From Artocarpus heterophyllus (lineage: Eukaryota > Streptophyta > Magnoliopsida > Rosales > Moraceae): a DNA stretch of 64,000 bases. Where the stretch lies: NCBI GenBank assembly GCA_025403435.1, contig CM046354.1, positions 40,621,779 through 40,685,778 of the forward strand, written 5' to 3'. A program made the translations under genes and the position numbers. Shown one piece after another: positions 3,561 through 55,171 of the stretch. The notes under the pieces are model-generated. The model made no database searches. It saw only the letters and a list, made by a program, of their open reading frames with translations, and was not told the origin of the DNA. Every line of letters starts with the position of its first letter. The stretch's first letter is position 1.

Positions 3561-5210
3561 TTTCAATCTACAATAAAGAATCATATACCAAACATAAGCA
3601 AACATATATAATAATTTAGTAAGTTAACACAATCATGTAAAATCATACAAATGTGTTTATGTGTCAAAACCTTGAAAATATCACAACCTTACAACGATAA
3701 TTCCCAACTCAGAATTCAACAAGCTCCTAGGGGAGTCATGCCAAATTCAATCAGGAACACGGATCCCCTCCTGATTAATATATGCCATCCAGGACCCGTA
3801 TGATCCAGCATATACTAATAATCGTTTCTTTGGCCATTAATTTTATTAACAGAGCTCCTAGGGGAGGTTAATAATAAAATTAACGTGAGTGTATAACCAC
3901 CGTTTTAATATTTTATCCATGATTTATAATCACCACCTAGGGGTGTGCAACCATAAATCATACTAAAATACCTTATCCTTTCAGAGATCCAATCTGGTAC
4001 ATGATAGAAATCCCTTCCTAGTGGTTGGGACCATCATGTTCTTCCTATGGACCAACGATGGAGGCCTTAGGTTCTCTCTTCGATAACCTTCTCCCACTCA
4101 ATCTTTTGAAGTCAAGGTTTTATTTTAAAATTATGCATGAACAATTTTAATATGAGCGGCACTCCCTACTCTATATGACATGTTATCAATATACATGGTA
4201 AATCATATTATAATGTAGACAAGCAAAGCAATCAAGCAAAGCTACAAGCATAATAATAATAACCGTAATATTATGGTTCCACCCTAGAGAATAGAAAAAA
4301 TAAGATTACAAGAGAATAATCGAGATATTTATCGATTCTTCATCCTTGAATCCTCAAGCTGTATCCTTCTTCATGTAATATCCATCTTCAAGTCCTCAAT
4401 CCCATATGAATCGAACACTTCATATTTTCGGTCATATCCAAATTTAATGTTTCTCAGAATCGTCCCAAAAATAAAATTAAAACTGTACTGAAAAAATCGC
4501 ACCTTTTCTGGACACCTGGCAGCTCTCGGTCGGCAGGCCGATCTGGGTGATCGGTCTGCCGATCATGGTGGTTCGGCCTGCCGAACATGAAGGTTCGGCC
4601 TGCCGGCAGAGCACCAAAATTTCTGCCCCACTGTCGGCCTGCCGGACCATACGTCCGGCCTGCCGATCTGTGACCTTCGGCCTGCCGAACTGTGAGGTCC
4701 GGCATGCCGACCGAGCAGAAAACCCTCAATCCAGAAAATACAATTTTAATGCAATTCATCAATTTTATTTTTAACAATTCAAAAACATAAAATTAGAGAC
4801 TCAGGAAATACCTGGAGACGCCATCATCAATCTTTAAGATCCGACTTCTCGTTCCGTCTTCTCCGAATAATTATTTAATTACAAAATTCTTACAAATTAA
4901 AAATTAAATGATAATTCCAAGACGGAGATGATAGTCCGCCATCTAATTACATGAAAAAACCTAGATACACATTCTAACTTCTAAGGAACCATAACCGGTA
5001 TTAATTAATTAATAAATAATTAAACAACAATTTAATCAACCATAATTAATTAATAAACATTCACCATATAATCCATGACAACATATATATTATATAGAAA
5101 CCTAGAGTGCCATCTCTCTATAAAATTTAATTCAAGCATTGGAGAGATTAAGATCACAAAATTTATGCATATAACATGATCACAAACTTGCAAATTTATG
5201 TAAAAACCTC
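3561..5210 (-). other. untranslated leader of copia A
   Basis: This lies between the primer binding site and the gag start. It has no convincing ORF; the frames present translate the GC-rich motif array. It holds that array (4525-4713) plus AT-rich stretches. The same leader occurs in X's host Y, Z, C3 and C4, so it is a family trait. In retroelements this region normally holds RNA dimerisation and packaging signals. Confidence 0.8.
4525..4713 (-). repeat. degenerate dyad-motif array in leader of A
   Basis: About eight degenerate copies of a GC-rich motif, spaced some 20-35 bp. On the plus strand it reads TTCGGCCTGCCGAAC-like; in element sense, GTTCGGCAGGCCGAA. Each unit is an inverted repeat (TCGGC/GCCGA) around a 2 bp centre. 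The array stands out sharply from the AT-rich flanks. Confidence 0.9.
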
Positions 5211-5223
5211 GGCTCTGATACCA
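5211..5223 (-). other. primer binding site (initiator-Met tRNA) of A
   Basis: Sense TGGTATCAGAGCC, the standard site complementary to the 3' end of plant initiator-Met tRNA. It lies 2 bp from the LTR end at 5226. Confidence 0.93.
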
Positions 5224-5618
5224 ATTGTTGGAAACAAAGTGCGCAGCGGAATTTTTAAAATTTTTCATCAGAGTATTTTCCAAAACACAAGTTTGACATG
5301 TTATATGTATAAATTAAACAGATCTTACTAACCTCAGTGTGCCGAAGAACCTCCGCGACCTGTGTAGAGAAGTAACGTTCCTAGAAGAGCCTCAACCAAC
5401 TGGTCTTCTTTGCTATTCTCTATCCACAACCGGAGTGAGTGTGGGCTCACACGTACAGCTCTTCCACCGGTGACTCTCCTTCCAATCAATAGAGAGAACC
5501 CAAAGCTAGTGTTCGTGATTTGTGAACAAAAGCTCTCAGGGAGTTTTCAGATGCTCACTAGAAGAGTATCACTCTTAATCTCTCAAATTGATCTGAGTAA
5601 ATCATTAGACTCACTCCC

Positions 5619-5626
5619 TTTTTATA
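5619..5626 (-). promoter_or_regulatory. TATA box of LTR A
   Basis: Sense TATAAAAA followed by GGGAGTGAG. The same place in the other LTRs holds TATATAAA or TATAAAAA, which supports it as the promoter. Transcription would run leftward into gag. Confidence 0.75.
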
Positions 5627-5743
5627 CCTATTGGTCCTTGGGGTCAGTCCATATCAGATTAGGTCTCAAAAATCGAAACAGAATCAAGTTCGGATCAATA
5701 TCTGATAAGATACGCGTGAAAAACGTGTAATCTTAGCTGTCGC

Positions 5744-5829
5744 GGTCGGCATGCCGAACTGTGAGATAGGCAGGCCGAACTGGCCAGTTCGGCAGGCCGA
5801 ACACGTCATCCGGCATGCCGAACTGCCGA
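5744..5829 (-). repeat. dyad-motif array in U3 of LTR A
   Basis: Four units with plus-strand core CGGCAGGCCGAAC or CGGCATGCCGAAC, just upstream (in sense) of the TATA box. In element sense the core is CGGCCTGCCG, the reverse complement of the leader array of the same element. Confidence 0.88.
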
Positions 5830-8259: not shown

Positions 8260-10274
8260 TGTTGGAAACAAAGTGCGCAGCAGAATTTTAAAAATTTTTC
8301 ATCAGAGTATTTTCCAAAACACAAGTTTGACATGTTATATGTATAAATTAAATAGATATTACTAACCTCAGTGTGCCGAAGAACCTCTGCGACCTGTGTA
8401 GAGAAGTAACGTTCCAGAAGAGCCTCAACCAACTGGTCTTCTTTGCTATTCTCTATCCACAACCGGAGTGAGTGTGGGCTCACACGTACAACTCTTCCAC
8501 CGGTGAATCTCCTTCCAACCAACAGAGGGAACCCAAAGCTAGTGTTCGTGATTTGTGAACAAAAGCTCTTAGGGAGTTTTTTAGATGCTCACTCGAAGAG
8601 TATCACTCTTAATCTCTCAAATTGATCTGAGTAAATCATTAGACTCACTCCCTTTTTATACCTATTGGTCCTAGGGTCAGTCCATATCAGATTAGGTCTC
8701 AAAAAATCAAAACATAATCAAGTTTGGATCAATATCTGATAAGATCCGCGTGAAAACGTGTAATCTTAACTGTCGTCGGTCGGTAGGCCGAACTTTCTGA
8801 TAGGCAGGCCAAACACGTCATCCGACAGGCCGAACTACTGAGAAAAAATCTCCGCGAATCTTTTATTTTCCACCCGAGATTCTAAAGGATAAAGTCTTAG
8901 TTTTGATTCAAATAGCCCAATAGAAAAGATATCTGATCAAAACAAACTTTATCAAGATAATCTCTAAGAAAATAAATCAATTCACAATAATTCTACAAGT
9001 TTATCTTGTTCTAATTGTCCAAAATTAAAACAACCGATAAACAGACAAGAATTACCCGAACGCAATAATTCAACAAGTTCATCTTGAACTAATTTTCTTA
9101 CATAATTAATTCAACCGATAAACAGACATGAATTATTTGATTCTTATAAATTTTAAACCAATCTGATAAATCCGACATAAGTCACCAATTATTGGAAAAG
9201 CACGCCGTGTCGTTATAGGATTTTGTGAGCTAGCAAAGGGGACCAAAATGGACCTATAAAGTTCAAGTTCATGATAATTATGAAACCCAATATCCCAGAT
9301 ATACATTTCACAATTATCAACTCCAACGCTACTCCACTAAAAGCTTGGAGCTACACTCTCGAACTTTATAGAATTACGAAGCTCGTGTAGCTAAGTCTCC
9401 ATGACATATCATAGTGTATCGCATCCCCATATGATCATCCATAATCGGCTTAAGGACAAATTTTGTCTTACCTTCCCGATTATTTTTATCTTACGTTCCA
9501 TTGTCTCACCATTAGAAAACTTACCATCCAAAGATAGTATACCATTCGGTTACACCTATGTATCCAAATGGTTGAGCGCTCCAGTTTTTCCAATTACAGG
9601 ACAACGCATATAAGAGGATATCATTACTCCTAAAGAGGAGCTATGGATTCCATATCTATGAATAACAAGTCTACGCTATCAAGAGTCATGCCTCCAACAT
9701 ACCGGCATGCATGCCACTATAGAAATGTGGGAGTCACCCATTGGTACATCAAAAGACACAAGTCGAGACAACGGGCCCATTATTCATCTTAGGATTAAGA
9801 TACAATACAAATGATTGTCTAAAGTGAATCGATTTGCCAAGACAGAATTATTAATCCAAATCAATTCACTTTAGGTCCCGATCCAACACATCGTCAACTA
9901 TGACAACGCGCCAATGTTTATATTCACGGAGTCCAACTCCGATGGCCAAGAGAAACCATCTCCCAAAAAGGGATATAGACAACATAACAATCTTTACATG
10001 AATAAAGCGCCCAACTTTATTCCCTCGATTGCGGATCATATGTTTTAGATCGTCACCCTAAGAATTGTGTCTTCCGCATAATCATCCCATCATATGCCCA
10101 ATTCTTAGGGTTTAGACTGACAGTCTCAGACTACTGTTTGCTTATCATACATTCAACAAATATGAACGTAAAGAGGACAATATTTGGTATATATAAATGA
10201 ATAAATTCTTTATTGATAAAAATGTCTCAAAAAACGTATTACATTTTTACTCCTTAGAGCATACATGTCTAACA
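8260..10274 (-). repeat. solo LTR of the copia A family
   Basis: A complete 2,015 bp LTR (plus-strand ends TGTTGGAAAC ... GTCTAACA) with no internal region. It is flanked by perfect 5 bp duplications CGAAG at 8255-8259 and 10275-10279. It sits inside X's 3' LTR. It carries the U3 motif array (about 8774-8838) and a TATA box. It most likely arose by recombination between the two LTRs of a full element, which removed the interior. Confidence 0.93.
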
Positions 10275-11519
10275 CGAAGAACCTTAGCAAAGCGTGAAGA
10301 GAAGTAACATTGTAGAAGAGCCTCAACCAACTGGTCTTCTTTGCTATTCTCTATCCATGATCGGAGTGAGTGTGGGCTCACACGTACAGCTTTTCCACTA
10401 AGTGACTCTCCTTCCAACCAATCAAGAGAACCCAAAACTAGTGTTTGTGATTTGTGAACAAAAGTTCTCGGGGATTTTTTAGATTCTCACCAGTAGAGTA
10501 TCATTCTTAATCTCTCAATTGATCAAAATAACTCTTAAGACTCATTCCCTATTTATAGAGGTTGGGTCTAGGGTCAGTACTTATCAGATTAGGTCTCAAA
10601 AACTCGAAATAGAATCAAGTTCAGATTAATATCTGGTAAGATCCGTGTAAAAATGCGTGATCTTATCCTTCGCTCATGGGCAGGCCGAACAGGCCCTATC
10701 GGCAGGCCGAACATGATGATCGGTAGGCCAACTTTTGAATAAAAAATTTTAGTGAATCTTTTATTTTTCACCTGAGATTCTATAGGATAAAGTCTTAGTT
10801 TTAATTCAAATAACCTAATAGAGAAGTTATCTGATCAAAACAACTTTATCTAGATAATCTCTAGGACAATAAATGAATTCCTAATGATTCTATAAGTTTA
10901 TCTTGATCTAATCTATTCAAAATTAAATCAACCGATAAACAGACAAGAATTGTCTGATCTTAATAATTCAACACGTTCATCTTGAATCAATTTCATCACA
11001 AAATTAATTCAACCGATAAACAGACATGAATTATTTGATTCTTTCAAATTTTAACCAATCTGATAAATCTGACATAAGTCACCAATTATTAGAAAAGCAC
11101 GCCGTATCATTTTAGGATTTTGTGAGCTAGCAAAGGGGACCAAATGGAGCTCTATAGTTCAAGCTTCTGATAATTATGAAACCCAATATCTTAGATATAT
11201 ATTTCATAATTATCAACTCTAGCGCTACTCCACCAAAAACTACGAGCTGCACTCTAGAACTACATAGAATTACGAAGCCCGTATAGCTAAGTCTCCATGA
11301 CATATCATAGTGTATCGTATCCCCATAGAATTATCCATAATCGGCTTAAGGACAAGTTCTGTCTTACCTTCCTGATTATTTTTATCTTACGTTCCATTAT
11401 CTCACCATCGAAAAACTTACCATCCAAAGACAGTATATCATTTGGTTATAACTATGAATCCAAATGGTTGAGCGCTCTAGTTTTTCAATTACAAGATAAC
11501 GCATATAAGAGGATATCAA
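9625..11519. repeat. tandem duplication, copy 1 (1,895 bp unit)
   Basis: Bases from about 9625 to 11519 recur about 1,895 bp further on. The unit joins the end of the solo LTR to the adjacent part of X's LTR. Only a handful of substitutions separate the copies. Confidence 0.85.
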
Positions 11520-14064
11520 TACTCCTAAAGAGGAGCTATGGATTCCATATCTATGAATAACAAGTCTACGCTATCAAGAGTCATGCCTCCAATGTACCGG
11601 CATGCATGCCACTATAGAAATGTGGGAGTCACCCATTGGTACATCAAAAGACACAAGTCGAGACAACGGGCCCATTATTCATCTTAGGATTAAGATACAA
11701 TACAAATGATTGTCTAAAGTGAATCGATTTGCCAAGACAGAATTATTAATCCAAATCAATTCACTTTAGGTCCCGATCCAACACATCGTCAACTATGACA
11801 ACGCGCCAATGTTTATATTCACGGAGTCCAACTCCGATGGCCAAGAGAAACCATCTCCCAAAAAGGGATATAGACAACATAACAATCTTTACATGAATAA
11901 AGCGCCCAACTTTATTCCCTCGATTGCGGATCATATGTTTTAGATCGTCACCCTAAGAATTGTGTCTTCCGCATAATCATCCCATCATATGCCCAATTCT
12001 TAGGGTTTAGACTGACAGTCTCAGACTACTGTTTGCTTATCATACATTCAACAAATATGAACGTAAAGAGGACAATATTTGGTATATATAAATGAATAAA
12101 TTCTTTATTGATAAAAATGTCTCAAAAAACGTATTACATTTTTACTCCTTAGAGCATACATGTCTAACACGAAGAACCTTAGCAAAGCGTGAAGAGAAGT
12201 AACATTGTAGAAGAGCCTCAACCAACTGGTCTTCTTTGCTATTCTCTATCCATGCTCGGAGTGAGTGTGGGCTCACACGTACAGCTTTTCCACTAAGTGA
12301 CTCTCCTTCCAACCAATCAAGAGAACCTAAAACTAGTGTTTGTGATTTGTGAACAAAAGTTCTCGGGGATTTTTTAGATTCTCACCAGTAGAGTATCATT
12401 CTTAATCTCTCAATTGATCAAAATAACTCTTAAGACTCATTCCCTATTTATAGAGGTTGGGTCTAGGGTCAGTACTTATCAGATTAGGTCTCAAAAACTC
12501 GAAATAGAATCAAGTTCAGATTAATATCTGGTAAGATCCGTGTAAAAATGCGTGATCTTATCCTTCGCTCATCGGCAGGCCAAACAGGCCCTATCGGCAG
12601 GCCGAACATGATGATCGGTAGGCCAACTTTTGAATAAAAAATTTTAGTGAATCTTTTATTTTTCACCTGAGATTCTATAGGATAAAGTCTTAGTTTTAAT
12701 TCAAATAACCTAATAGAGAAGTTATCTGATCAAAACAACTTTATCTAGATAATCTCTAGGACAATAAATGAATTCCTAATGATTCTACAAGTTTATCTTG
12801 ATCTAATCTATTCAAAATTAAATCAGCCGATAAACAGACAAGAATTGTCTGATCTTAATAATTCAACACGTTCATCTTGAATCAATTTCATCACAAAATT
12901 AATTCAACCGATAAACAGACATGAATTATTTGATTCTTTCAAATTTTAACCAATCTGATAAATCTGACATAAGTCACCAATTATTAGAAAAGCATACCGT
13001 ATCATTTTAGGATTTTGTGAGCTAGCAAAGGGGACCAAATGGAGCTCTATAGTTCAAGCTTCTGATAATTATGAAACCCAATATCTTAGATATATATTTC
13101 ATAATTATCAACTCTAGCGCTACTCCACCAAAAACTACGAGCTGCACTCTAGAACTACATAGAATTACGAAGCCCGTATAGCTAAGTCTCCATGACATAT
13201 CATAGTGTATCGTATCCCCATAGAATTATCCATAATCGGCTTAAGGACAAGTTCTATCTTACCTTCCTGATTATTTTTATCTTACGTTCCATTATCTCAC
13301 CATCGAAAAACTTACCATCCAAAGACAGTATATCATTTGGTTATAACTATGAATCCAAATGGTTGAGCGCTCTAGTTTTTCAATTACAAGATAACGCATA
13401 TAAGAGGATATCAATACTCCTAAAGAGGAGCTATGGATTCCATATCTATGAATAACAAGTCTACGCTATCAAGAGTCATGACTCCAACATACCAGTATGT
13501 GTACCACTATTAAGTTGTAAGAGTCACACTTTGGTACATCAAAAGACACAAGTCCAGACAACGGGCCCATTATTCATCTCTTTATTAAGATACAATACAA
13601 ATGATTGTCTAAAGTGAATTGATTTGCTGAGACAGAATTATTAAACCAAATCAATTCACTTTATGTCTCGATCCAACACATCGTCTCCTATGACAACGCG
13701 CCAATGTTTCTATTCATGGAGTCCACCTCCGATGGTTAAGACAAACCATCTCCCATTAGGGATATAGACAACTTAACAATCTTTACATGAATAAAGCGCC
13801 CAACTTTATTCCCTCGATTGTGGATCTTATGATTTAGACCATCACCTTAAAAATCATGTCTTCCACATAATCTGTCCATCATATGCCCAATTCTTAAAGG
13901 TTTAGACCGACAGTCTCAGACTAATGTTTGTCTAACATACATTCAACAAATATGAATGTAAAGAGGACAAGATTTTGTATATTAACAATAAATAAATTCT
14001 TTATTGACAAAATGTCTCCCAAAACTTATTACATTTTTACTCCTTAGGGCATACATGCCAAACA
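10275..14064 (-). repeat. X 3' LTR, remainder including duplicated segment
   Basis: The LTR resumes after the solo LTR and runs to its sense start TGTTTGGCATG at 14064, next to the polypurine tract. It is 1,895 bp longer than expected because of the duplication. U3 motif arrays occur twice (about 10672-10733 and 12567-12628), as do antisense 87-codon ORFs (11297-11560 and 13192-13455). Confidence 0.87.
11520..13414. repeat. tandem duplication, copy 2
   Basis: This is the second copy. The switch from X-like to solo-LTR-like sequence lies between 11519 (X-type A) and 11586 (solo-type C), within 66 bp that are the same in both LTRs. That is the expected signature of unequal crossing-over between the two LTRs. 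Confidence 0.83.
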
Positions 14065-18341: not shown

Positions 18342-19621
18342 CCAACATATATTAATAATCTTTTCTTTGACCATTAATTTTATTAACAGAGCTCCTAGGG
18401 GAGGTTAATAATAAAATTAACATGAGTGTATAACCAGTCTTTCAACTACTTTATCCACGGTTTATTATCATCACCTTGGGGTGATCAATAATAAACCATA
18501 CTAAAAGTAAATTATCCTCTCGGAGACCCAACCCGGTGCATGATGAAATCCCTTCCTTGGGGTTGGAACCACCATGTGCTACCCATGGACCAACGATCGA
18601 AACCGTATTGAAATCAAGGTTTTATTTTATAAAGATGCATGAACAATTTTTAATGAGTGGCACTCCCTATTCTATATGACATGCTATCAATATACATGGT
18701 AAATCATATTATAATTTTGACAAGCAAAGCAGTCATGCAAAGCCACCAGCAAAATAATAAATAACCGTAATATTTGATTCCACCCTAGAGAATAGAAAAC
18801 AAAGATTATAAGAGAATAATCGAAACATAATATCAATTCTTCACTCTTGAATCTTTAAATTGTATCCTTCTTCATATAATGTCCATCTTTAAGTCCTCAA
18901 GCCCGTATAGATCAAAAGCTCCATATTTTCGGTCATTTTCAAATTTAATGTTTCTCATAATTGTCCCAAAAATAAAATCACAACTGCACCAAAAAATACA
19001 CATTTTTTAAAAAATTTACAGCTCTCTGCCGGCATGTCGATTTGTGTGATCGACCTGCCAGTCATGATCCATCGGCCTGTTGATCTTTCAAGTCAACCTA
19101 CCGTGGAAAGTTTGGCGTGCCACCGAACCATTAGGTTTCTGTCCTGCAAATGGCTTGCCAAACCTAAAGTCTGGATTACCGATTTGCGACCATTAGCTTG
19201 CCGGACCTAAGGGTTTGGCCTACCAAACGAGCAAAAATCACAACATCTAGAAAATGCATCTTTTAATGCAATTTATCAATTTTGTTTTCAACAATTTTAA
19301 AACATAATATTAAAGATTTAGGAAATACCTATGGAACGCTATGATCCATCTTCTACATCCATCTTGTCTGAATGATTATTTAATTACAAAATTCTTACAA
19401 ATTTAAAATTAAATAATAATTTCTAGATGGAGATGATAGCTGCCATTTAATTACATGAAAAACCTATATACACATTTTAACCTCTAAGGAACCACAATCG
19501 GCATAAATTAATTAATTAATAATTAATTAAATAATAATTTAATTAACCATACTTAATTAATAAACATTCACTATATAATCGATGACAACATATAAATATA
19601 TAGAAACCCTAGAGTGCTAAC
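18342..19621 (-). other. leader of copia Y, second part
   Basis: This is the continuation of Y's leader, homologous to 3800-5100 of A. It contains a decayed motif array (19027-19230). It ends at 19621, where the plus-strand LTR of Z begins. Y's primer site and 5' LTR are not seen and should lie beyond Z. Confidence 0.83.
19027..19230 (-). repeat. decayed dyad-motif array in leader of Y
   Basis: About nine eroded units (CGGCATGTCGA, CGGCCTGTTGA, TTGGCCTACCAAAC and similar). Most CG pairs have become TG or CA, while spacing and orientation match the intact leader array of A. Confidence 0.8.
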
Positions 19622-21623: not shown

Positions 21624-21625
21624 AT

Positions 21626-31745: not shown

Positions 31746-31751
31746 AGCCTC

Positions 31752-35619: not shown

Positions 35620-35633
35620 GAGCTCTGATACCA
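35620..35633 (-). other. primer binding site of G
   Basis: Sense TGGTATCAGAGCTC, complementary to initiator-Met tRNA, 3 bp from the 5' LTR. Confidence 0.92.
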
Positions 35634-35636
35634 TTC

Positions 35637-40715: not shown

Positions 40716-41942
40716 TGTAACGCCTGAAACTTAATTAAGTATGATTAGTGTGCAAAATGGTGAATTAGTGTGCCAAATTTGTGATTTGCTTTAATTTAAT
40801 TATTTTGTGATGATTTCCCAATCAATTTGAATTTCAAACTACTTTAATTATTTTTATTAATTGCATTCGCCATTCTGAATTTTTTAATGCAAAACAATTT
40901 GTCAAAGGCCAAATACGTCCTCTTTGTAAAATTGTGGATGCACATGGTTTTCTTCTCTGGTTTTACTCTCCCTCCCTCTATTTATTTCTCTCTCTCCATC
41001 CTCTCTCCTCACTTTCTCAATCTCTCCCTCTCCACTCTCAGCATACTCTCTCTCACTGCCTATCACCCTCTCTCTTTCCCTCTCAAATTTTGATTCAAAA
41101 TTGAGCTCAACCTTGGATCTTCAACTGGATTGGCAGCTAAGGAGCAAGATTGAGCCTCCACAAACTTGATTTTAAGCTTGGATTCGAGGTTAGCTTGTTA
41201 TTTTCCAAATTCTCAAAACTTTTTTCAAAATTTTCAATTTCTTTAAAATGTTGTAATTTGAGTTTCTATAGCTTAGGAAACCTTTAATCTAAGTTAATGG
41301 GACTCAAAACAACTTGAATCTAGGCTTGATTTCACAAAAAATGGATTGGATCACATTTTTCCTATTTTTCCCATATTCAGATTCATTTCAGATTTTCTAT
41401 GTAAATCTTGTTTAAATTTGTTTAATTGCATTCTATCATATTTTTTCTATCATCTATGAATGTTTTCTATGTCTAGGAATCGAGAAAAATAGGCTTAGAA
41501 TGAGATTTCAAGCTCGGGAGGCCGAGACTCAAAATCTAGAACTTTCTAGAATTTCCCAGTTTGACAGGCCGATCTTGAGTATCAACAGGACAGATTCATG
41601 AGTTCGGTAGGCCAAAATCATATAATCGGCAGGCCGAACCTGAGAAAGTTTGGTAGGCCGATTTTGTATGGTCGGTAGGCTGAACTACGTAGTTCGGCAG
41701 GCCGGTATGGACAGTTTGGTAGGCCGATCGAAGTTTATGAGGAATAACATTTTTCACTGTTTTAAACCAAGATGAAGTTTTTAACTTTTATAGAATGACT
41801 CTATGAACTTCAATGGCACACTAAGACACCATGAAACAACTGAGTAATGTAGAATATCCTAAGCAAGATATTGATGGACTTAGTTTACATTTAAGGTTGT
41901 GCGTAGTTTCGTAGAGCTAGTGTATAGCGGGCCGAGACTGCG
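40716..41942 (+). repeat. LTR fragment of a gypsy G relative
   Basis: Starts TGTAACGCCTGAAAC and follows the sense LTR of G: the GAATTAGTGTGCCA segment, the CT-rich tract after a TATTTATTTC box, the motif array and the GTATAGCGG segment. It is clearly diverged. It stops at 41942, where copia C3 begins. The rest of its LTR should be beyond C3. Confidence 0.88.
41571..41728 (+). repeat. dyad-motif array in the G-relative LTR
   Basis: Seven or so units (GACAGGCCGATC, CGGTAGGCCAAAA, CGGCAGGCCGAACC and others) in sense orientation AGGCC, as in G. Units differ in spacers from G, so the array has evolved since the split while keeping the core. Confidence 0.88.
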
Positions 41943-42170: not shown

Positions 42171-43608
42171 TGTTAGACTTGTATGCCCTAAGGAGTAAAA
42201 ATGTAATACGTTTTTGGAGACATTTTTATCAATAAAGAATTTATTCATTTATATATACCAAATCTTGTCCTCTTTACGTTCATATTTGTTGAATGTATGA
42301 TAAGCAAATAGTAGTCTGAGACTGTTAGTCTAAACCTTAAGAATTGGGCATATGATGGGATGATTATGCGGTAGACACGATTCCTAAGGTGATGGTCTAA
42401 AACATATGATCCGCAATCGAGGGAATAAAGTTGGGTGCTTTATTCATGTAAAGATTGTTATGTTGTCTATATCCCTTTTGGTAGATGGTTTATCTTGGCC
42501 ATCGGAGTTGGACTCCGTGAATAGAAACATTGGCACGTTGTCATATGTGACGATGTGTTGGATCGGGACATAAAGTGAATTGATTTGGATTAATAATTGT
42601 GTCTTGGCAAATCGATTCACTTTAGACAGTCATTTGTATTGTATCTTAATCCTGAGATGAATAGGGGGCCCGTTGTCTCGACTTGTGTCTTTTGATGTAC
42701 CAATGGGTGACTCCCACATCTCTATAGTGGTATGCATGCCGGTACGTTGGAGGCATGACTCTTGATAGCGTAGACTTATTATTCATAGATATGGAATCCA
42801 TAGCTCCTCTTTAGGAGTAATGATATCCTCTTATATGCGTTGTCCTGTAATTGGAAAACTGGAGCGCTCAACCATTTGGATACATAAGTGTAACCGAATG
42901 GTATACTATCTTTTGATGGTAAGTTTTCTGATAGTGAGACAATGGAACGTAAGATAAAAATAATTGAGAAGATAAGACAGAACTCGTCCTTAAGCCGATT
43001 ATGGATGATCATATTGGGATACGATACACTATGATATATCATGGAGACTTAGCTACACGAGCTTCGTAATTCTATAAAGTTCGAGAGTGCAACTCCCAGC
43101 GTTTAGTGGAGTAGCGTTGGAGTTGATAATTGTGAAATGTATATATGGGATATTGGGTTTCATAATTATCATGAGCTTGAACTTTATAGGTCCATTTTTG
43201 TCCCCTTTGCTAGCTCACAAAATCCTGTAACGACACGGTGTGCTTTTTCAATAATTGGTGACTTATGTCAGATTTATCAGATTGGTTTAAAATTTGTAAG
43301 AATCAAATAATTCATGTCTGTTTATCGGTTGAATTAATTTTGTAAGAAATTAGTTCAAGATAAACTTGTTGAATTATTGCGATCAGATAATTCTTGTATG
43401 TTTATCGGTTGTTTTAATTTTGGACAAAATTAGAACAAGATAAACTTGTAGAATTATTGTGAATTGATTTATTTTCTTAGAGATTATCTTGATAAAGTTT
43501 GTTTTGATCAGATAACTTCTCTATTGGGTTATTTGAATCAAAACTGAGACTTTATCCTTTTGAATCTCGAGTGGAAAATAAAAGATTCGCGGAGATTTTT
43601 TCTCAGGA

Positions 43609-43672
43609 GTTCGGCCTGCCGAACTGGCCTATTTGGCCTGCCGATCAAAATGTTCGGCCTGCCGATCAGCGG
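43609..43672 (+). repeat. dyad-motif array in U3 of C4 5' LTR
   Basis: Three units: GTTCGGCCTGCCGAAC, TTTGGCCTGCCGATC and GTTCGGCCTGCCGATC. It lies about 110 bp upstream of the TATA box. Confidence 0.9.
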
Positions 43673-43783
43673 ATATAAGATTACGCATTTTCACGTGGAT
43701 CTTATCAGATATTGTTCCGAACTTGATTCTGTTTCGAGTTTTTGAGACCTAATCTCATACGGACTGACCCCAGGACCAATTGT

Positions 43784-43791
43784 TATATAAA
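43784..43791 (+). promoter_or_regulatory. TATA box of C4 5' LTR
   Basis: TATATAAA followed by GGGAGTGAG, at the same place as in the LTRs of A, Z and C3. Confidence 0.75.
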
Positions 43792-44187
43792 GGGAGTGAG
43801 TCTCATGATTTACTCAGATCAATTTGAGAGATTAAGAGTGATACTCTTTTAGTGAGCATCTGAAAACTCCCTGAGAGCTTTTGTTCACAAATCACGAACA
43901 CTAGCTTTGGGTTCTCTCTGTTGGTTGGAAGGAGAGTCACCGGTGGAAGAGCTGTACGTGTGAGCCCACACTCACTCCGGTTGTGGATAGAGAATAGCAA
44001 AGAAGACTAGTTGGTTGAGGCTCTTCTGGAACGTTACTTCTCTACACAGGTCGCAGAGGTTCTTCGGCACACTAAGGTTAGTGAGATCTGTTTAATTTAT
44101 ACATATAACATGTCAAACTTGTGTTTTGGAAATTACTCTGATGATAAAATTTTTAAAAATTCTGCTGCGCACTTTGTTTCGAACAAT

Positions 44188-44200
44188 TGGTATCAGAGCC
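44188..44200 (+). other. primer binding site of C4
   Basis: TGGTATCAGAGCC, canonical initiator-Met site, 2 bp after the LTR. Confidence 0.94.
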
Positions 44201-45892
44201 AAGGTTTTTACATAAATTTGCAAGTTTGTATCATGTTATATGCATAAATTCTGTGATCTTAATCTCTCCTATGCTTGAATTGAATTTTATAGAGAGATGG
44301 CACTCTAGGTTTCTATATAATATATATGTTGTCATCGATTATGTGGTGAATGTTTATTAATTAATTATGGTTGATTAAATCATAATTAATTAATTATTAA
44401 TTAATTAATACCGGTTATGGTTCCTTAGAGGTTAGAATGTGTATCTAGGTTTTTCATGTAATTAGTTGGCGGACTATCATCTCCGTCTAGGGATTGTTAT
44501 TTATTTTTTTTAATTTGTAAGAATTTTGTAATTAAATAATTATTCGGGGAAGACGGAACGAGAAGTCGGATCTTGAAGATTGATGAAGGCGCCTCCAAGT
44601 ATTTCCTGAGTCTCTAATTTTATGTTTTTGAATTGTTGAAAATAAAATTGATGAATTGCATTAAAATTGTATTTTCTGGATTGAGGGTTTTCTGCTCGGT
44701 CAGCATGCCGGACCTCACAGTTCGGTCGGCCAAAGGTCACAGATCGACAGGTCGGACGTGTGGTCCGGCAGGCCGACAGTGGGGTAGAAATTTTGGTGCT
44801 CTGTCGGCAGGCCAAACTTTCATGTTCGGCAGGCCAAACTTTCATGTTCGGCAGGCCAAACCTGCATAGATCGGCAGGCCGATGTTTCATATCGGCATGC
44901 TGATAGAACAAGACCGGGGTGATCAGCCTACCGACCGAGAGCTGCCAGGTGTCCTGAAAAGGTGCAATTTTTTCGGTGCAGTTTTAATTTTATTTTTGGG
45001 ACGATTATGAGAAACATTAAATTTGGATATCACCGGAAATATGAAGTATTCGATTGATACGGGATTGAAGACTTGAAGATGGATATTACATAAAGAAGGA
45101 TACAGGTTGAGGATTCAAGGATGAATAATCGAGAAATGCCTCGATTATTCTCTTGTAATCTTAGTTTTCTATTCTCTAGGGTGGAACCATGATATTACGG
45201 TTATTATTATTTTGCTTGTAGCTTTGCTTGATTGCTTTGCTTGTCTGCATTATAATATAATTTACCATGTATATTGATAACATGTCATATAGGATAGGGA
45301 GTGCCACTCATATTAAAATTGTTCATGCATAATTTTAAAATAAAACCTTGACTTCAAAAGATTGAGTGGGAGAAGGTTTTCGAAGAGAGGACCTAAGGCC
45401 TCCATCGTTGGTCCATAGGAAGAACATGGTGGTCCCGACCCCTAGGAAGGGATTTCTATCATGTACCAGATTGGATCTCTGAAAAGATAAGGTATTTTAG
45501 TATGATTTATGGTTGCACACCCCTAGGTGGTGATTATAAATCATGGATAAAATATTGAAATGATGGTTATACACTCACGTTAATTTTATTATTAACCTCC
45601 CCTAGGAGCTCTGTTAATAAAATTAATGGCCAAAGAAACAATTATTAGTATATGCTGGATCATACGGGTCCTGGATGGCATATATTAATCAGGAGGGGAT
45701 CCGTGTTCCTGATTGAATTTAGCATGACTCCCCTAGGAGCTTATTGAATTCTGAGTTGGGAATTATCGTTATAAGGTTGTGATATTTTCAAGGTTTTGAC
45801 ACATAAACACATTTGTATGATTTTACATGATTGTGTTATCTTACTAAATTATTATATATGTTTGGTATATGATTCTTTATTGTAGATTGAAA
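44201..45892 (+). other. leader of C4 with motif array
   Basis: No supported gene. The array at about 44696-44940 has nine or ten units with sense core GGCAGGCC, two of them an exact local repeat (TTTCATGTTCGGCAGGCCAA). The rest matches the leaders of A and Z. Confidence 0.82.
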
Positions 45893-48800
45893 ATGTCTAA
45901 AAACGCTTTATCTTCGATACTTGACAAAAACCAATTAACCGGTGAGAACTATAACGATTGGAAGCGAAACTTGGACATCGTCCTTTCCTTTGAGAAACTG
46001 AAATATGTCTTGACAACTCCTTGTCCTCCCGAGCCTACGGGAGACTCAAGTAATGAGCAATTCCAAGCGTACGACCGCTGGAAAGATGCTAATGATCAGG
46101 CCCGCTGCTATGTTATGGCTAGCATGAACAACGTGCTGCAGGCTCAACATCAGGATTATGAGACTGCAAAGCAGATCTTGGATAATCTTGAGGATATGTT
46201 CGGAGGCCAGGCCAGGCCATAACAAAGCGGCAAGGGACGCTTCTAAAACTCTTAAACTGTAGACAGAGACTAGGGACATCTGTAAAGGAGCACATGATGT
46301 TGGTCATGGGTTACCTCACTAAGGCTCAAACCAATAGAGCCGACATCGATGCTGAAACTCAGATGACTATGGTCTTTGAGACTTTGTCTAAGGAATTTAT
46401 TCCGTTTAGAGCTACTTTTAATTTAAGCAATAGACGAGATATGACCTTGATAGAACTGATGAAACAGATACAGGAGTTTGAACTGCTGATCAGGGAGTCT
46501 CCTGCTAGTGGTGAGGCCAACGTGGTAGCTGCTTCTGGTTCCAATCCTAACTCTGGGAATGGAAAGAAGCAACAGGCCAAGAGTGGGAAGTCTTCTATTC
46601 CTCCTGCAACCAAGAGCAGGAAGAAGAAGAAGAAGAACCCAAAGAAGCTTAAGTGCTTCTTCTGTGGAAAGGTCGGGCATATTAAGAAGCATTGCAAGGA
46701 GTTCCTTTCCAAGGGAGGTAGGTGTGATCTTCTATATTTAGAAACTTGTTTGGTTGAGGAATCCAGTGACATCTGGGTCATAGATTCCGGTGCAACTAAT
46801 CATGTTTGTGTTTCTCTGCAGGGATTCAAAGAAACGAGAAGTCTATTTCGTGAAGACTTAATGCTTCGGATGGGCGATGGATCCTTGGTCTCAGCGGAAG
46901 TAGTGGGAGATGTCCATCTTTACTTTGATAATTATAGGAATTTAATTTTGCGAGACTGTTTTTATGTTCCAAAATTTAAAAGGAATTTAATTTCTGTATC
47001 TTCTTTATTTAAAGACTCCTACGTGGTATCTTTTAATGAAAAAGTAGTGATTCGTAAAAACAAATCTTTTATCTGTTCTAGATGGATGCAAAATAATCTA
47101 TACTTTATCAAACCTAAGATGGACTTATTGCTTAATGCTGAGATAAATGATAATGACTCAAAAAGACTTAAAACTTCTCACTCTAATAAGACTTATCTTT
47201 GGCATTTGCGCCTTGGCCATGTTAACTTGAATAGGATTCAAAGGTTGGTAAGGGATGGACCTTTAAGTCACTTAAAAGTGGAATCTATACCTCAATGTGA
47301 ATCTTGTTTGGAGGGTAAAATGACCAAAAGACCGTACGGGTCAAAGGGCAATAGGGCCGAAGGGGTTCTAGAACTTGTGCATAGTGATGTTTGCGGACCG
47401 ATGAACATCCGGGAACGAGGAGGGTATGAGTACTTCGTCACTTTTATTGACGAGTACTCAAGATATGGGTATGTGTACCTAATGTACCACAAAAGCGAAA
47501 CTTATGATAAGTTTAGGGAGTTTCGGGCTGAAGTGGAAAAGCAATTGGGTAGACCCATAAAGGCACTTCGATTTGATCGAGGTGGGGAATACCTTTCTAA
47601 TAACTTCGATTTGTTAGAGAATGGGATTTTATCCCATTTGACTGCGCCGGGCACTCCGCAGCAGAATGGCGTAGTGGAGAGAAGGAATAGGACTTTGTTG
47701 GACATGATTCTGTCCGTGATGAGTTATTCATCATTGCCTTTATCCTTTTGGGAATATGCACTACAAACCGCATGTTATCTTTTGAACAATGTGCCTTCAA
47801 AATCGGTCCCTAAAACTCCTCACGAGTTGTGGACAAGATGGAAGACATCCTTAAACCATATTCGCATATGGGGATGTCTAGCTCATGTCCTGTTTAAGGA
47901 TCCGAATAAGTTGGAAGCACGTTCGGAAGTTTGTGTTTTTGTAGGATATCCAAAAGGGACTAAAGGGGGTTATTTTTATAACCCTAAGGAAAATAAAGTC
48001 GTGGTTTCAACGAATGCAACTTTCCTTGGGGAGAGTTACATGGACGACTTTAAACCTCGAAGCAAAGTGGTGCTTGAGGAGTTAAGGGGTGATTCGTTTA
48101 CTCCGGAGGTTCCGAACGAAACCATTTCGATTGGTGTAGAAAAACCAAACAAACCTGAACAACAACCTCAGGGGCTTCGGCGTAGTGGGAGGATCAGGCG
48201 TCAACCTGAGAGGTATATGTTCAATGGGGTTGTCTTTTTGGCTGAACCGAATGAACATGACAGGGATCCTTATACTTACGCAGAAGCTATGGAGGATGTT
48301 GATTCAAGACTCTGGACAGAGGCCATGAACATTGAGATGAAGTCTATGGAGACTAATTAGGTCTGGGAGCTTGTGGATCTTCCCCAAGGGGTAAAACCTA
48401 TGGGGTGTAAGTGGATCTACAAGAGGAAAAGAGGAGTGGATGGAAAGGTCGAAACCTTAAAAGCTAGACTGGTAGCTAAGGGTTATACGCAAAAGGAAGG
48501 AATCGATTATGAGGAAACCTTTTCGCCTGTAGCCATGCCTGTAGCCTGTAGCCATAGCTGCCGCTCTCGACTATGAGATTTGGCAGATGGATGTCAAGAC
48601 GGCTTTTCTGAATGGCTATCTTGATGAGTCCATTTATATGGAACAACCAGACAGATTCAAGGTCGCGGGTCAAGAGGGTAAGGTTTGTAAGCAGCTAAAG
48701 TCTACTTATGGACTTAAGCAGGCTTCTCGTTCTTGGAACATAAGATTTGATCAAGTGATCAAGACTTATGGGTTCTCACAAAATGTGGATGAACCATGTG

Positions 48801-49834
48801 TTTACAAACACATTAAGGATGGGAAGGTGGTTTTTCTACTGCTCTATGTAGATGACATTTTGCTAATTGGCAATGACGTTGGAGCATTGTCATCGGTCAA
48901 ATTATGGTTGACCAAGTAGTTTGATATGAAGGACTTAGGTGAGGCTAATTTTGTTCTCGGTATCCAGATCTTTCGGGATAGGAAGTACAAAATGATAGCT
49001 TTGTCTCAGGCCGGCTACATAGATAAAATTCTCAGGAGGTTTGCAATGCAGGATTCCAAGAAAGGTGGGCAACCATCTAGGTCTGGAATTACTCTTTCTA
49101 AGAAAGACTCTCCAAAGTCTTATGAAGAAAGAGAATACATGACGAAGGTGCCTTATGCTTCGTTGGTGGGTAGTCTCATGTATGCCATGCTTTGCACACG
49201 ACCGGATATTGGCTTTGCGGTCGGGATTGTAAGTTGATTTCAGGCGGATCTAGGACCGAACCATTGGGTTGCGGTAAAGCATATTTTCAAGTACCTGAGA
49301 AGGACTCGAGGGTATATGCTTGTGTATTCGGGTGAGGATTTGACTCCTCTAGGATACACTGATTTGGATTTTCAATCCTGTCTGGATTCTAGGAAATCAA
49401 CTTCAGGGTTTGTGTTTACTCTGGGTTGCGGTGCCATCAGTTGGAGAAGTGGGAAGCAAGATTGCACTTCGGATTCAACGATGGAGGCCGAGTATGTGGC
49501 AGCTAGTGATTCTTCGAAAGAAGCAGTGTGGCTCCGCAAGTTCCTTGGGGATCTTGAGGTAGTTCCTGGTATGGATTAAGTGGTATCATTGTACTGTGAT
49601 AACAGTGCGGCGGTAGCTAATGCTAAGGAACCAAGATTTCACAAGTATAGTAAGCATATTGATCAGAAGTATCATGTGATAAAGGACTTCGTTGAGGGCG
49701 GGCATGTCACGGTGTGCAAGATCACGTCAGAGGACAATTTAGCTGATCCATTTACGAAGACACTAACTGGGAGAGTCTTCGAGAGGCATGTGGAAGCTAT
49801 GGGGATGCAAAATTTGCAGTATTTATTCACTTAG
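45893..49834 (+). pseudogene. copia gag-pol of C4, near complete, several breaks
   Basis: ATG at 45893. A 5 bp tandem duplication (about 46206-46217) shifts the frame in gag. The frame is then open to 48360 (knuckle [14 protein letters not shown] from 46654, protease DSGATNHV, integrase HHCC and DDE). TAG at 48358-48360 replaces a CGG of A. About 26 bp near 48540 are replaced by 15 bp, shifting the frame again. RT YVDD is at 48845-48856. TAG follows at 48917-48919, TGA (from CGA) near 49235 and TAA near 49577. RNase H runs to the stop at 49832-49834. All domains are present, but no single working frame. Confidence 0.93.
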
Positions 49835-49848: not shown

Positions 49849-51861
49849 TGTTAGAAATGTATGAGCTAAGGAGTAAAAATGTAATACGTTTTTGGAGACA
49901 TTTTTATCAATAAAGAATTTATTCATTTATATAAACCAAATCTTATCCTCTTTACGTTTATATTTGTTGAATGTATGATAAGCAAACAGTAGTCTGAGAC
50001 TGTCAGTCTAAACCTTAAGAATTGGGCATATGATGGGATGATTATGCGGTAGACACGATTCTTAAGGTGATGGTTTAAAACATATGATCCGCAATCGAGG
50101 GAATAAAGTTGGGCTCTTTATTCATGTGAAGATTGTTATGTTGTCTATATCCCTTTTGGGAGATGGTTTGTCTTGGCCATTGGAGTTGGACTCCGTGAAT
50201 AGAAACATTGGCACGTTGTCATATGTGACGATGTGTTGGATCGGGACATAAAGTGAATTGATTTGGATTAATAATTTTGTCTTGGCAAATCGATTCACTT
50301 TAGACAGTCATTTGTATTGTATCTTAATCCTAAGATGAATAGTGGGCCTGTTGTCTCAACTTGTGTCTTTTGATGTACCAATGGGTGACTCCCACATATC
50401 TATAGTGGTATGTATGCTGGTACGTTGGAGGCATGACTCTTGATAGCGTAGACTTATTATTCATAGATATGGAATCCATATCTCCTCTTTAGGAGTAATG
50501 ATATCCTCTTATATGCGTTGTCCTGTAATTGGAAAACTGGAGCGCTCAACCATTTGGATACATAGGTGTAACTGAATGGTATACTATCTTTGGATGGTAA
50601 GTTTTCTGAAAGTGAGACAATGGAACGTAAGATAAAAATAACCGGGAAGGAAAGACAGAACTTGTCCTTAAGTCGATTATGGATGATCATATGGGGATAC
50701 GATACACTATGATATGTCATAGAGACTTAGCTACACGAGCTTCGTAATTCTATAAAGTTCGAGAGTGCAGCTCCAAGCTTTTAGTGGAGTAGCGTTGGAG
50801 TTGATAATTGTGAAATGTATATCTGGGATATTGGGTTTCATAATTATCATGAGCTTGAACTTTATAGGTCCATTTTGGTCCCCTTTGCTAGCTCACAAAA
50901 TCCTGTAACGACACGACGTGCTTTTCCAATAATTGGTGACTTATGTCAGATTTATCAGATTGGTTTAAAATTTGTTTGAATCAAATAATTCATGTCTGTT
51001 TATCGGTTGAATTAATTTTGTAAGAAATTAGTTCAAGATAAACTTGTTGAATTATTGCGATCAGATAATTCTTGTCTGTTTATCGGTTATTTTAATTTTG
51101 GACAAAATTAGAACAAGATAAACTTGTAGAATTATTATGAATTGATTTATTTTCTTTGAGATTATCTTGATAAAGTTTGTTTTGATCAGATAACTTCTCT
51201 ATTGGGTTATGTGAATCAAAACTGAGACTTTATCCTTTAGAATCTCGGGTGGAAAATAAAAGATTCGTGGAGATTTTTTCTCGGGAGTTCGGCCTACCGG
51301 ATGACGTGTTTGGCCGGCCGAACTGGCCTGTTCGGCCTGCAGATCAGCGGAGATAAGATTACTTGTTTTCACGTGGATCTTATCAGATATTGATCCAAAC
51401 TTGATTCTGCTTCAAGTTTTTGAGACCTAATCTGATGCGGACTGACCCCAGGACCAATAGTTATATAAAGGTAGTGAGTCTCTTGATTTACTCAGATCAA
51501 TTTGAGAGATTAAGAGTGATGCTCTTCTAGTGAGCATCTGAAAACTCCTTGAGAGCTTTGTTCACAAATCACGAACACTAGCTTTGGGTTCTCTCTGTTG
51601 GTTGGAAGGAGAGTCACCGGTGGAAGAGCTGTACGTGTGAGCCCACACTCACTCCGGTTGTGGATAGAGAATAGCAAAGAAGACCAGTTGGTTGAGGCTC
51701 TTCTGGAACGTTACTTCTCTACACAGGTCGCGGAGGTTCTTCGGCACACTGAGGTTAGTAAGATCTGTTTAATTTATACATATAACATGTCAAACTTGTG
51801 TTTTGGAAATTACTCTGATGATAAAATTTTAAAAATTTTGCTGCGTACTTTGTTTCCAATA
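49849..51861 (+). repeat. 3' LTR of C4
   Basis: TGTTAGAAATGTATG to TTTCCAATA (final CA mutated to TA). U3 array at 51286-51345, antisense 87-codon ORF at 50457-50720. It is followed by the GACGG duplication. Confidence 0.95.
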
Positions 51862-53653
51862 GACGGTCTAAATCATAAGATCCGCAATCGAGGGAATAAA
51901 GTTGGGCGTTATATTCATATAAAGATTGTTATGTTGTCTGTATCCCTAATGGGAGATGGTTTGTCTTGACCATAGGAGGTGGACTCCATGAATAGAAACA
52001 TTGTCACGTTGTCATAGGTAATGATGTGTTGGATCGGGACATAAAGACAATTGATTTAGATTAATAATTCTGTCTTGGCAAATGGATTTACTTTAGGCAA
52101 TCATTTGTGTTATATCTTAATCTTGAGATGGATAGTGGGCCTGTTGTCTAGACTTGTGTCTTTTGATGTACCAAATGGTGACACCCACATCTTAATAGTC
52201 GTATGCATGCTGGTACGTTGGAGGCATGACTCTTGATGGCGTAGACTTGTTATTCATAGATATGGAATCCATAGCTACTCTTTAGGAGCAATGATATCCT
52301 CTTATATGCGTTATCCTATAATTAGAAAATTGGAACGCTCAACCATTTGGAAACATATGTGTAACCGAATGGTATACTGTCTTTGGATGGTAAGTTTTCT
52401 GATGGTGAGATAATGGAACGTAAGATAAAAATAATTGGGAAGGTAAGATAGAACTTGTCCTTAAGCCGATTATGGATTATCATATGGTGATACGATACAC
52501 TATGATATGTCATGGAGACTTAGCTACACGGGCTTCGTGATTCTATGTTGTTAGAAAGTGCAGCTCCAAGCTTTAGTGGAGTTGCGTTGGAGTTGATAAT
52601 TATGAAATGTATATCTGGGATATTGGGTTTCATAGTTATCGAGAGCTTGAACTATATAGGTCCATTGGGTCCCCTTTGCTTGCTCACAACATCTTGTAAC
52701 AATACGGCGTGCTTTTTCAATAATTGGTGACTTATATCGAATTTATCAGATTGGTTTGAAATTTGGAAGAATCAAATAATTCATGTCTATTAATCGATTG
52801 AACTAATTTTGTGATAAAAATTAATTCAAGATATGCTTGTTGAATTATTGGGATTGGATAATTCTTGTCTGTTTATCGGTTGATTTAATTTTTGGATAAA
52901 TTAGATCAAGATAAACTTGTAGAATTATTGGGAATTGATTTATTTTCTTAGAGATTATTTAGATAAAGTTGTTTTGATCAGATAACTTCTCTATTGGGTT
53001 ATTTGAATTAAAACTGAGACTTTATCATATAGAATCTCAGGTGAAAAATAAAAGATTCACGAGATTTTTAATTGCTAGTTTGGCCTGCCGATCCACGTGT
53101 TCGGACTGTCGATGGGGCCTGTTCGGCCTGCTGATAAGCGAATGATAAGATTACACATTTCTACACGGATCTTATCAAATATTGATCTAAACTTGATTTT
53201 GTTTCGAGTTTTTAAGACCTAATCCAATAAGGACTGACCCTAGGCCAAACCTCTATATAAAGGTAGTAAGTCTTAAGAGTTACTCAGATCAGTTGAGAGA
53301 TTAAGAGTGATACTTTGCTAGTGAGAATCTGAAAACTCCCTGAGAGCTTTTGTTCACAAATCACGAACACTAGCTTTGCGTTCTCTCAATTGGTTGGAAG
53401 GGGAGTCACCTAGAGGAAGAGCTGTACATGTGAACCCACACTCACTCCGGTTGTGAATAGAGAATATCAAAGAAGACTAGTTGGTTGAGGCTCTTCTAGA
53501 ACGTTACTTATCTTCACGTTTTGCGAGGGTTCTTCAGCACACAAAGGTTAGTAAGATCTAGTTAATTTATGCATATAGCATGTCAAACTTATGTTTTGGA
53601 AAATACTCTAATATAAAATTTATAAAATTCTGCTACATACTATTTTTCCAACA
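51862..53653 (+). repeat. C3 5' LTR, second part
   Basis: Resumes with GACGGTCTAAATC and ends TTTTTCCAACA at 53653. U3 array at 53079-53138, TATA box TATATAAA at 53254-53261. The antisense ORF is shortened (52322-52513). Confidence 0.92.
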
Positions 53654-53656
53654 AAT

Positions 53657-53669
53657 TGGTTTTAGAGCC
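53657..53669 (+). other. degenerate primer binding site of C3
   Basis: TGGTTTTAGAGCC, two changes from the canonical site. Confidence 0.8.
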
Positions 53670-55171
53670 ATGATTTTTACATAAATTTATGAGTTTGTGA
53701 TCATATTTTATCCTATGCTTGAATTTAATTTTATAGAGAGTTGGCACTCTAGGTTTCTATATAATTTTATGTTGTCATAGATTATATGGTGAATGTTTAT
53801 TAATTAATTATGGTTGATTAAATTGTCATTTAATTATTTATTAATTAATTAATTATACCGGTTATGGTTCCTTAGAGGTTAGAATGTGTATCTAGGTTTT
53901 TTTATGTAATTAGATGGCAAATTATCATCTTCGTCTAGGAATTGTTATTTAATTTTAAATTTGTAAGAATTTTGTAATTAAATAATCATTTGGAGAGGAT
54001 GGATCTAGAAGGCGGATCTAGAAGAATGATGATGGCGCTTCCAAGTATTTCTTGAGTCTCCAATTTTATGTTTTTTGAATTGTTGAGAATAAAATTGATG
54101 AATTGCATTAAAAATTGTTTTTTCTAGAATGAGAAATTTTTGCTTGGTCGGCATGCCGAACCCTCCAGTTCGGCAGGCCAATGGTCACAGATCGACAGGC
54201 CAGACGTGAGGTTTGGCAGGCCGTCAGTGGGGTAGAAATCAGGCAGCTTTGTCGGTAGGCCAAACTTGCAGTTTGGTAGGATAAACTTTCATGAGTCGAT
54301 AGGCCGATCTCCTTGATCGGCAGGCCGATGGAGCATGACCGGTAGGCTGATCACTCAAAAAAGGTACAGTTTTCAATGCAGTTTTAATTTTATTTTTGGG
54401 ACAATTTTGAGAGACATTAAATTTGGATATGACCGAAAATATGAAGTATTCGATTCATACGGGATTGAAGACTTGAAGATGGAATTACATGAAGAAGGAT
54501 ACAACTTGAGGATTTAAGGATAAAGAATTGATAAATGTCTCGATTATTCTCTTGTAATCTTAGTTTTCTATTCTCTAGGGTGGAACTGTAATATTACGGT
54601 TATTATTATTTTGCTTGTAGCTTTGCTTGATTGCTTTGCTTGTCTACATTATAATATGATTTGCCATGTATATTGATAACATGTCATATAGAATAAGGGG
54701 TTCCACTCATATTTAAATTGTTCATGCATGATCTTAAAATAAAACCTTGATTTCAAAAGATTAAGTGGGAGAAGGTTTTCGAAGAGAGAACCTAAGGCCT
54801 CTATCGTTGGTCCATAGGCAGAACATGGTGGTCTCGACCCCTAGAAAGGGATTTCTATCATGTACCAGATTGGATCTCTGAGCAAATAAGGTATTTTAGC
54901 ATGATTTATGGTTGCACACTCCTAGGTGGTGATTGTAAATCATGGATAAAATATTGAAACGATGGTTATACACTCACATTAATTTTATTATTAACCTCCC
55001 CTAGGAGCTTATTGAATTATGAGTCGGGAATTATCGTTGTAAGGTTGTGATATTTTCAAGGTTTTGACACATAAACACATTTGTATGATTATACATGATT
55101 GTGTTATCTTACTAAACTATTATGATATGTCTACTTATGTTTAGTATATGATTCTTTATTGTAGATTAAAA
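53670..55171 (+). other. leader of C3 with motif array
   Basis: No supported gene. The array at 54145-54353 has about nine units with sense core GGCAGGCC or GGTAGGC. The distal leader is shortened by a deletion just before about 55010 compared with C4. Confidence 0.8.

Follow-up and report, generated by a model that had tools for sequence, protein, structure and literature searches.

A 21-22-bp-phased dyad array shared by copia and gypsy retrotransposons of Artocarpus heterophyllus, a candidate site for a common DNA-binding protein

How does the same GC-rich dyad come to be arrayed in retrotransposons of two different superfamilies? This question is raised by a 64,000-nucleotide stretch of Artocarpus heterophyllus DNA (assembly GCA_025403435.1, contig CM046354.1, positions 40,621,779 to 40,685,778; called the window below and numbered from its first letter), in which a palindromic unit is repeated in the long terminal repeats (LTRs) and leaders of Ty1/copia and Ty3/gypsy elements. 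A sequence-only reading of the window had listed 13 arrays and set motif transfer, capture of a host sequence and convergent selection side by side as explanations. We favour, with a probability of about two in three, a reading in which the arrays are promoter or enhancer sites of a dimeric DNA-binding protein, with fast turnover of whole units.

The exact dyad, TCGGCNNGCCGA, occurs 18 times in the window and 0.00 times in dinucleotide shuffles; with at most one mismatch, the numbers are 55 and 0.28, respectively. A symmetric, refined 16-bp profile (GTTCGGC-MK-GCCGAAC, with a threshold of at least 11 bits per unit) detected 86 units, versus zero to three in each of ten simulated sequences. All 86 are located in copia or gypsy LTRs or leaders, and the third gypsy region of the window (57.8-64 kb) has no unit above this threshold. 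The centre of the dyad is always 2 bp long in the window (18 exact dyads, versus none with centres of 0, 1 or 3-8 bp), and the outer bases of the unit are looser than its core, as expected of the site of a dimer. The 985-Mb assembly contains 78,652 exact sites, versus 221 for the reversed pattern. Thus, the shuffles, the simulated sequences, the reversed-pattern control in the genome and the centre-length control together rule out chance or base composition as the cause. Each of the 13 positions listed earlier has a unit no more than 12 bp away. That list had missed three copia arrays (at 8778, 10675 and 12570), and its statement that every copia copy is arrayed holds for copies that include the U3 or leader regions, not for copies without them.

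The elements of the window were defined by self-comparison, Pfam domains and the anatomy of LTRs and primer-binding sites (PBSs). The copia family, called copia-A, has LTRs of ~2.0 kb with the ends TGTTAGA..CAACA and an iMet-type PBS. Its U3 and its leader carry an array each. In the copy at 42171-49440 (+), the 5' LTR is followed by the PBS at 44188, the leader and the gag and pol regions; its 3' LTR may be the one at 49849-51859. Named protein hits are mostly from plants, and the few under bacterial names look like contamination. Three head-to-tail copia LTR-like stretches of ~1.9 kb (8377-10274, 10275-12169 and 12170-14064) were also seen, and they probably result from recombination between elements. 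The gypsy element, G, spans 28731-37834 (-), with LTRs of ~2.16 kb (TGTAACG..CGTGACA) and an iMet-type PBS at 35622. G and a relative, gRel, have one array per LTR, and G thus carries two. Its LTRs, at 35637-37834 and 28732-30890, differ by ~3% divergence plus one whole 21-bp array unit.

Sensitive BLAST comparisons of the copia LTR and leader with the gypsy LTRs gave, among the matches listed, strong matches in the arrays only. The exceptions were AT-rich scraps and copia sequence next to gRel. The earlier view that copia and gypsy sequences are dissimilar outside the arrays is therefore upheld among these matches, and descent of whole copia and gypsy LTRs from a common ancestor is excluded, their flanks being unalignable.

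To see how far the arrays extend in the genome, we collected 67 stretches (L021-L087) around hits, i.e. a non-random sample. They contain 84 groups of at least two units, which amount to 83 distinct arrays because one array was read twice (L068 and L079). The 84 groups belong to copia-A (39), a second gypsy family called F3 (27), G/gRel (8), a second copia family called F4 (8) and neighbours of two families (2). All 83 distinct arrays are flanked by these two copia and two gypsy families, gRel being counted with G. Among nine single units in the sample, one (L032) had no family match. Nine stretches (L021, L027, L029, L034, L038, L040, L067, L068 and L079) doubled as references, so that F3 and F4 are defined by sampled stretches; L027 and L029 matched G or gRel independently of that role. 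Thus, as the sequence-only reading had anticipated, several families carry the unit with a conserved core and variable spacers. An even spread over the genome was not seen, all 83 distinct arrays of this hit-chosen sample being in LTR elements. The centre dinucleotide of 186 exact units at the sampled loci is AG/CT in 163, AT in 11, AA/TT in eight, CG in two and CA/TG in two. The stretches L086 and L087 contain diverged relatives of copia-A (74-82% in the matched flanks) with different unit arrangements.

Domain contents assign the four families to two superfamilies. Copia-A and F4 have copia-type gag_pre-integrs, integrase core and RVT_2 domains, whereas G and F3 have a Ty3-type gag, RVT_1 and a gypsy-type RNase H. 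F3 shares 70% amino acid identity with G in a reverse transcriptase segment and 47% in an RNase H segment. Its LTR, inferred to be 3.1 kb long, has two arrays, located at other places than in G and with opposite polarity. Matches between this LTR and G are confined to the arrays, if hits with E >0.02 and a CT-rich scrap in common with gRel are set aside. F4, which we take to be a SIRE-like copia, shows 40-45% amino acid identity with copia-A in the top five tblastx segments. Its LTR gave 36 BLAST hits against copia-A, G and gRel, of which two extend past the array: one does so by 51 bp, and the other is a weak hit.

We also scanned viral and prokaryotic sequences. The tandem-dyad scan of IMG/VR gave no matches, and no related loci were confirmed there. 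Among 12 prokaryotic matches, 11 are short groups in genomes of 59-77% GC. The remaining one is a real array (L004:4990-5243, on a contig of a delta-proteobacterial metagenome-assembled genome), with 12 copies of a 22-bp tandem repeat that has the same 12-bp dyad; we take it as a coincidence.

The position of the arrays relative to putative promoters is informative. In copia-A, a TATA box starts 117-118 bp past the U3 array in all eight copies. In the copy at 42171-49440, the U3 array (43609-43667, +; three units of the GTTCGGCCTGCCGAAC type, with the sense centre CCTG) ends 117 bp upstream of TATATAAAGGGAG, the putative TATA box of the LTR promoter at 43784-43796 (+). The fullest U3 array of the window, at 5744-5823 (-), has four units; the other six have three each and are located at 8778-8835, 10675-10733 and 12570-12628 on the minus strand and at 21059-21116, 51287-51345 and 53078-53136 on the plus strand. 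In F4, a 14-unit LTR array (4+4+4+2) ends 100 bp ahead of TATATATA, and two more LTR copies, with 11 and 13 units, have the same arrangement. F4 has an additional open reading frame, ORF4, and in the two copies read, a separate four-unit array ends 9 bp ahead of TATATAAA, before ORF4. To judge from its sequence, this array with its TATA box is apparently an internal promoter. Read along the direction of transcription, the units of the three TATA-linked arrays are centred on CCTG, except for AT in some copia-A units. The TATA-adjacent placement in two copia families favours a functional DNA site. Thus, to treat transfer, capture and convergence as equals, as was done earlier, is incomplete, even if transfer is suggested for one pair of families (see below).

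The units are phased. Among neighbours less than 150 bp apart, 41 of 49 copia pairs are spaced by 21 or 22 bp; the gypsy arrays show 21-22 bp in 13 of 21 cases and 20-23 bp in 17. Genome-wide, pairs of exact sites have periods of 21-22 bp in 8,238 cases, versus 149 for 19-20 bp and 567 for 23-24 bp. Gaps of 43 and 44 bp fit the absence of one unit, and the 39-bp gap of the copia leader is a separate linker that joins two blocks. Blocks of 4+4 units predominate in the copia leader and gypsy arrays. The leader arrays of the window consist of eight units (4+4) with a mostly CAGG sense centre at 4528-4712 (-), ten units at 44698-44936 (+), eight units over the threshold at 54146-54352 (+), seven in a decayed array at 22133-22318 (+) and four in a strongly decayed one at 19027-19228 (-). 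The G array of the 3' LTR (29867-30037, -) has eight units (4+4) with the sense centre CAGG, that of the 5' LTR (36790-36981, -) has nine, including the additional 21-bp unit, and the gRel array (41559-41729, +) has seven units over the threshold. Copies of an array thus differ by whole units, with three or four units in copia U3 and eight and nine in the two LTRs of G.

Units and spacers are not equally conserved. Between G and gRel, identity amounts to 60/80 positions in the cores and 16/16 in the centres, as against 22/41 in the spacers, 16/31 in the edges and 109/170 in the flanks, and the difference between core plus centre and spacer plus edge is significant (P 0.0004). The density of CpG is 98 per kb in the units versus 23 outside; quicker decay would therefore be expected in the units.

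In the explanation that we favour, the unit would be a double-stranded DNA site of a putative dimeric protein, and the arrays, with a repeat close to two helical turns and frequently grouped by four, would serve as promoter or enhancer elements of the LTRs. A factor of the LBD family came into consideration as this protein, but no more than that. The arrays would have arisen or been acquired at different places in each family, and whole units would be added or lost over time. With a single protein as the reader of all arrays, at least four families (copia-A, F4, G with gRel, and F3) are predicted to be jointly activated or kept unsilenced.

An array might also have been handed on between F3 and F4 as a cassette. 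F3 array 2 and F4 have in common a linker of ~38 bp between four-unit blocks, which is in register; in several F3 and F4 copies, it ends with TGCAAAG-CTCTG, directly followed by the next unit. We tested the linker in all 11 F3 copies (gap of 47-53 bp), with the reversed linker as a control. P values were <=0.033 in 9/11 copies with the first F4 linker (F4a), <=0.017 in 6/11 with the second and <=0.035 in 3/11 with the third. A common series of unit spacings in F3 array 2 and F4 U3 was rejected, since the series differ when read in the same orientation. The linker results suggest, without proving it, that the array may have been exchanged between gypsy and copia as a cassette.

For copia-A and G, transfer and convergence both stand. 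A single recent conversion between the copia leader of the window and G is rejected, as the order of units is not shared beyond chance: P was 0.05-0.48 for the copia leader versus the G array at 29867, 0.32-0.94 versus gRel and 0.14 by permutation of units, the null used in the later test. In the first set used for unit order and covariation, the sub-threshold units 22238, 54272 and 41581 were placed by hand, the U3 array at 12570 was omitted, and 8/10 and 8/9 units were picked in two leader copies. A sense end GCCGACCG(A/C)G, noticed post hoc, is found in one copy each of the copia-A leader (4528), copia-A U3 (5744) and G; it is absent from 6/8 U3 copies and from gRel.

Several observations weigh against the explanation by promoter or enhancer sites and its cassette step. 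Between G and gRel, the comparison of cores with flanks alone is non-significant (P 0.11). In copia U3, the cores (0.84) are no better conserved than the flanks (0.86), with the spacers at 0.54; in the copia-A leader, they are below the flanks (0.735 versus 0.83) and above the spacers (0.66). The G and copia-A leader arrays sit downstream of the likely start site. F3 array 2, which has CCTG centres, is followed only by a TATA-like TATAAR, which was spotted by eye in 10 of 14 copies, at distances of 36-79 bp. As a count, three canonical TATA cases among about seven array types are not decisive, because TATA words are common in AT-rich DNA. Regarding the cassette, the reversed F4a linker also gave P <0.05 in 4/11 F3 copies, and the linker counts are not independent, the F3 copies being mutually related. 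Of four comparisons in the unit-order test, three gave P 0.003-0.027 and one gave 0.43, uncorrected for the many pairs; the power of the test is low, since even G and gRel, true homologues, give only P 0.087.

No comparable TATA box was found for the G array, the copia-A leader array and F3 array 1, in which the centre is mostly CAGG. The gypsy array is inside the LTR, ~550 bp downstream of a likely start site deduced from a TATA-like word, and its assignment to U3 is not clear. The G and gRel LTRs have in common the motif GAG/GTTAG, which may be a splice donor (around 30402-30409, -, and 41186-41193, +). It lies between the array and the CT-rich region where transcription is likely to start; the G and gRel arrays may be within a leader intron.

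Among the other explanations, one that we regard as unlikely is that the arrays spread passively: a tandem repeat expanded by slippage would have been carried from element to element by template switching or conversion, with no function. LTR elements often have repeats in U3, and both the gain and loss of whole units and the likeness of the F3 and F4 linkers fit such a process. However, copying free of selection does not by itself explain why cores are kept beside diverged spacers, nor the fixed 2-bp centre, nor the placement of arrays beside TATA boxes at two places of one element.

A second alternative, which appears about as unlikely to us, is that the units fold as hairpins in the transcript and serve packaging, dimerisation, 5'-3' contact or translation. 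GC-rich palindromic hairpins of the leader are known as dimer linkage, packaging and cyclisation signals of retroviruses and Ty1. Arrays fold better than shuffled sequences (z -8.0 and -5.8), as does one copia-A leader (z -7.2; arms alone -6.5; 25 shuffles each). Such fold scores, however, arise from any array of palindromes. The leader array is also central to an imperfect inverted repeat, as seen for the ten-unit array within 44256-45341 (+) and for the copies at 4528, 22133 and 54146. Over these four copies, the z values of the arms are 5.7-8.3 for the inner 150 bp and 2.0-3.6 for 300-450 bp. The outer alignment of the two arms is thus weak, and the idea that the whole 1.1-kb leader forms an inverted repeat was dropped, strong support being limited to the inner 150 bp of either arm. 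At the U3 and gypsy arrays, the z values of such arms do not exceed 3.1 (G array at 29867). Five aligned leaders have ten pairs with changes on both sides, versus 5.3 in shuffles, and only 1/500 shuffles reaches ten; deamination of CpG can nevertheless yield double changes. No covariation was found in five representative arrays (P 0.96 within and 0.59 between units), and the hint of pairing between units is limited to the copia leader copies (P 0.002-0.20 in four copies). Searches gave no Rfam family at gathering scores and no tRNA. Moreover, the array of the copia-A leader, and likely that of G, is part of the transcribed leader, whereas the U3 arrays of copia-A and F4 are upstream of the likely start site. 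Thus, the present arrays differ from the retroviral and Ty1 signals in that they also occur upstream of the likely start, and in that covariation is absent or weak. For the leader, the RNA reading is retained as a rival.

It is very doubtful that the arrays are read by an element-encoded regulator, possibly the ORF4 product of F4, and that unrelated copia and gypsy families have pirated this trans-acting activation or anti-silencing system. ORF4 (L079:4851-6503) matches PF20167 (Transposase_32) and itself sits behind the four-unit array and its TATA box. Apart from F4, it had no match in the window or the fetched loci, and a sequence search found no solved structure among PF20167 relatives. 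Similarly improbable are independent captures of one array-bearing host sequence, such as a promoter or a satellite: the differing positions and polarities per family and the unalignable flanks would fit, yet none of the 83 distinct arrays of the hit-chosen sample, which has a single unmatched unit (L032), lies outside LTR elements.

Arrayed sites are known from other mobile elements. The leader of Drosophila gypsy contains an array of sites for the host protein Su(Hw), with an insulator function. The likeness is that a retroelement leader bears arrayed sites for a DNA-binding protein of the host; the Su(Hw) array differs in that it concerns a single family, acts as an insulator and belongs to another kingdom. 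Brassicaceae COPIA families (ONSEN, COPIA37 and TERESTRA) have heat-responsive clusters of nGAAn motifs in their LTRs, for the factor HSFA2; these were gained independently, with duplication of a proto-site giving a strong site, and the number and spacing of units matter (PMC5059998). The arrays described here resemble them as clustered LTR sites for one host factor, putative in our case, in several families. Likewise, copia-A (8/8 U3 copies) and F4 U3 have several sites ahead of the LTR TATA box, although this is not clear for G and F3. In contrast to those short nGAAn motifs of copia families, the arrayed unit is GTTCGGCMKGCCGAAC, a 12-16-bp dyad with a 21-22-bp phase that occurs in copia and gypsy elements, rather than nGAAn clusters, no scan of the LTRs for nGAAn having been made.

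The second precedent is provided by the VANDAL elements of Arabidopsis, in which target motifs of VANC proteins form arrays in non-coding regions and are gained or lost by formation of tandem repeats (PMC5735166, PMC10398659). Copia U3 and the G LTRs likewise have short non-coding motif arrays with unit turnover, and the VANC motif is read by a sequence-specific protein. The VANC21 motif, in contrast, is described there as non-palindromic, rare in other transposable elements and read by an element-encoded protein, whereas the site found here is shared by four families of two superfamilies rather than being largely restricted to the family that encodes its reader. The earlier statement that no element feature of this kind has been described was thus too strong, both systems being precedents in kind. 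We found no description of an array shared by copia and gypsy elements in the open-access literature. Measured against these systems, the dyad, its phasing, its sharing between copia and gypsy elements and the internal array in front of a TATA box are new; site clusters that form by duplication were already known.

If the explanation by sites of a dimeric protein is true, much of this genome's retrotransposon load, with ~79,000 exact sites, would be under the control of a single protein, and unrelated families would have come to the same control element by convergence or by trading it. The arrays would then offer a clean system to study how regulatory DNA moves between element families and how one factor may wake them jointly. 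It could also be tested whether host genes near insertions have been drawn into the same network.

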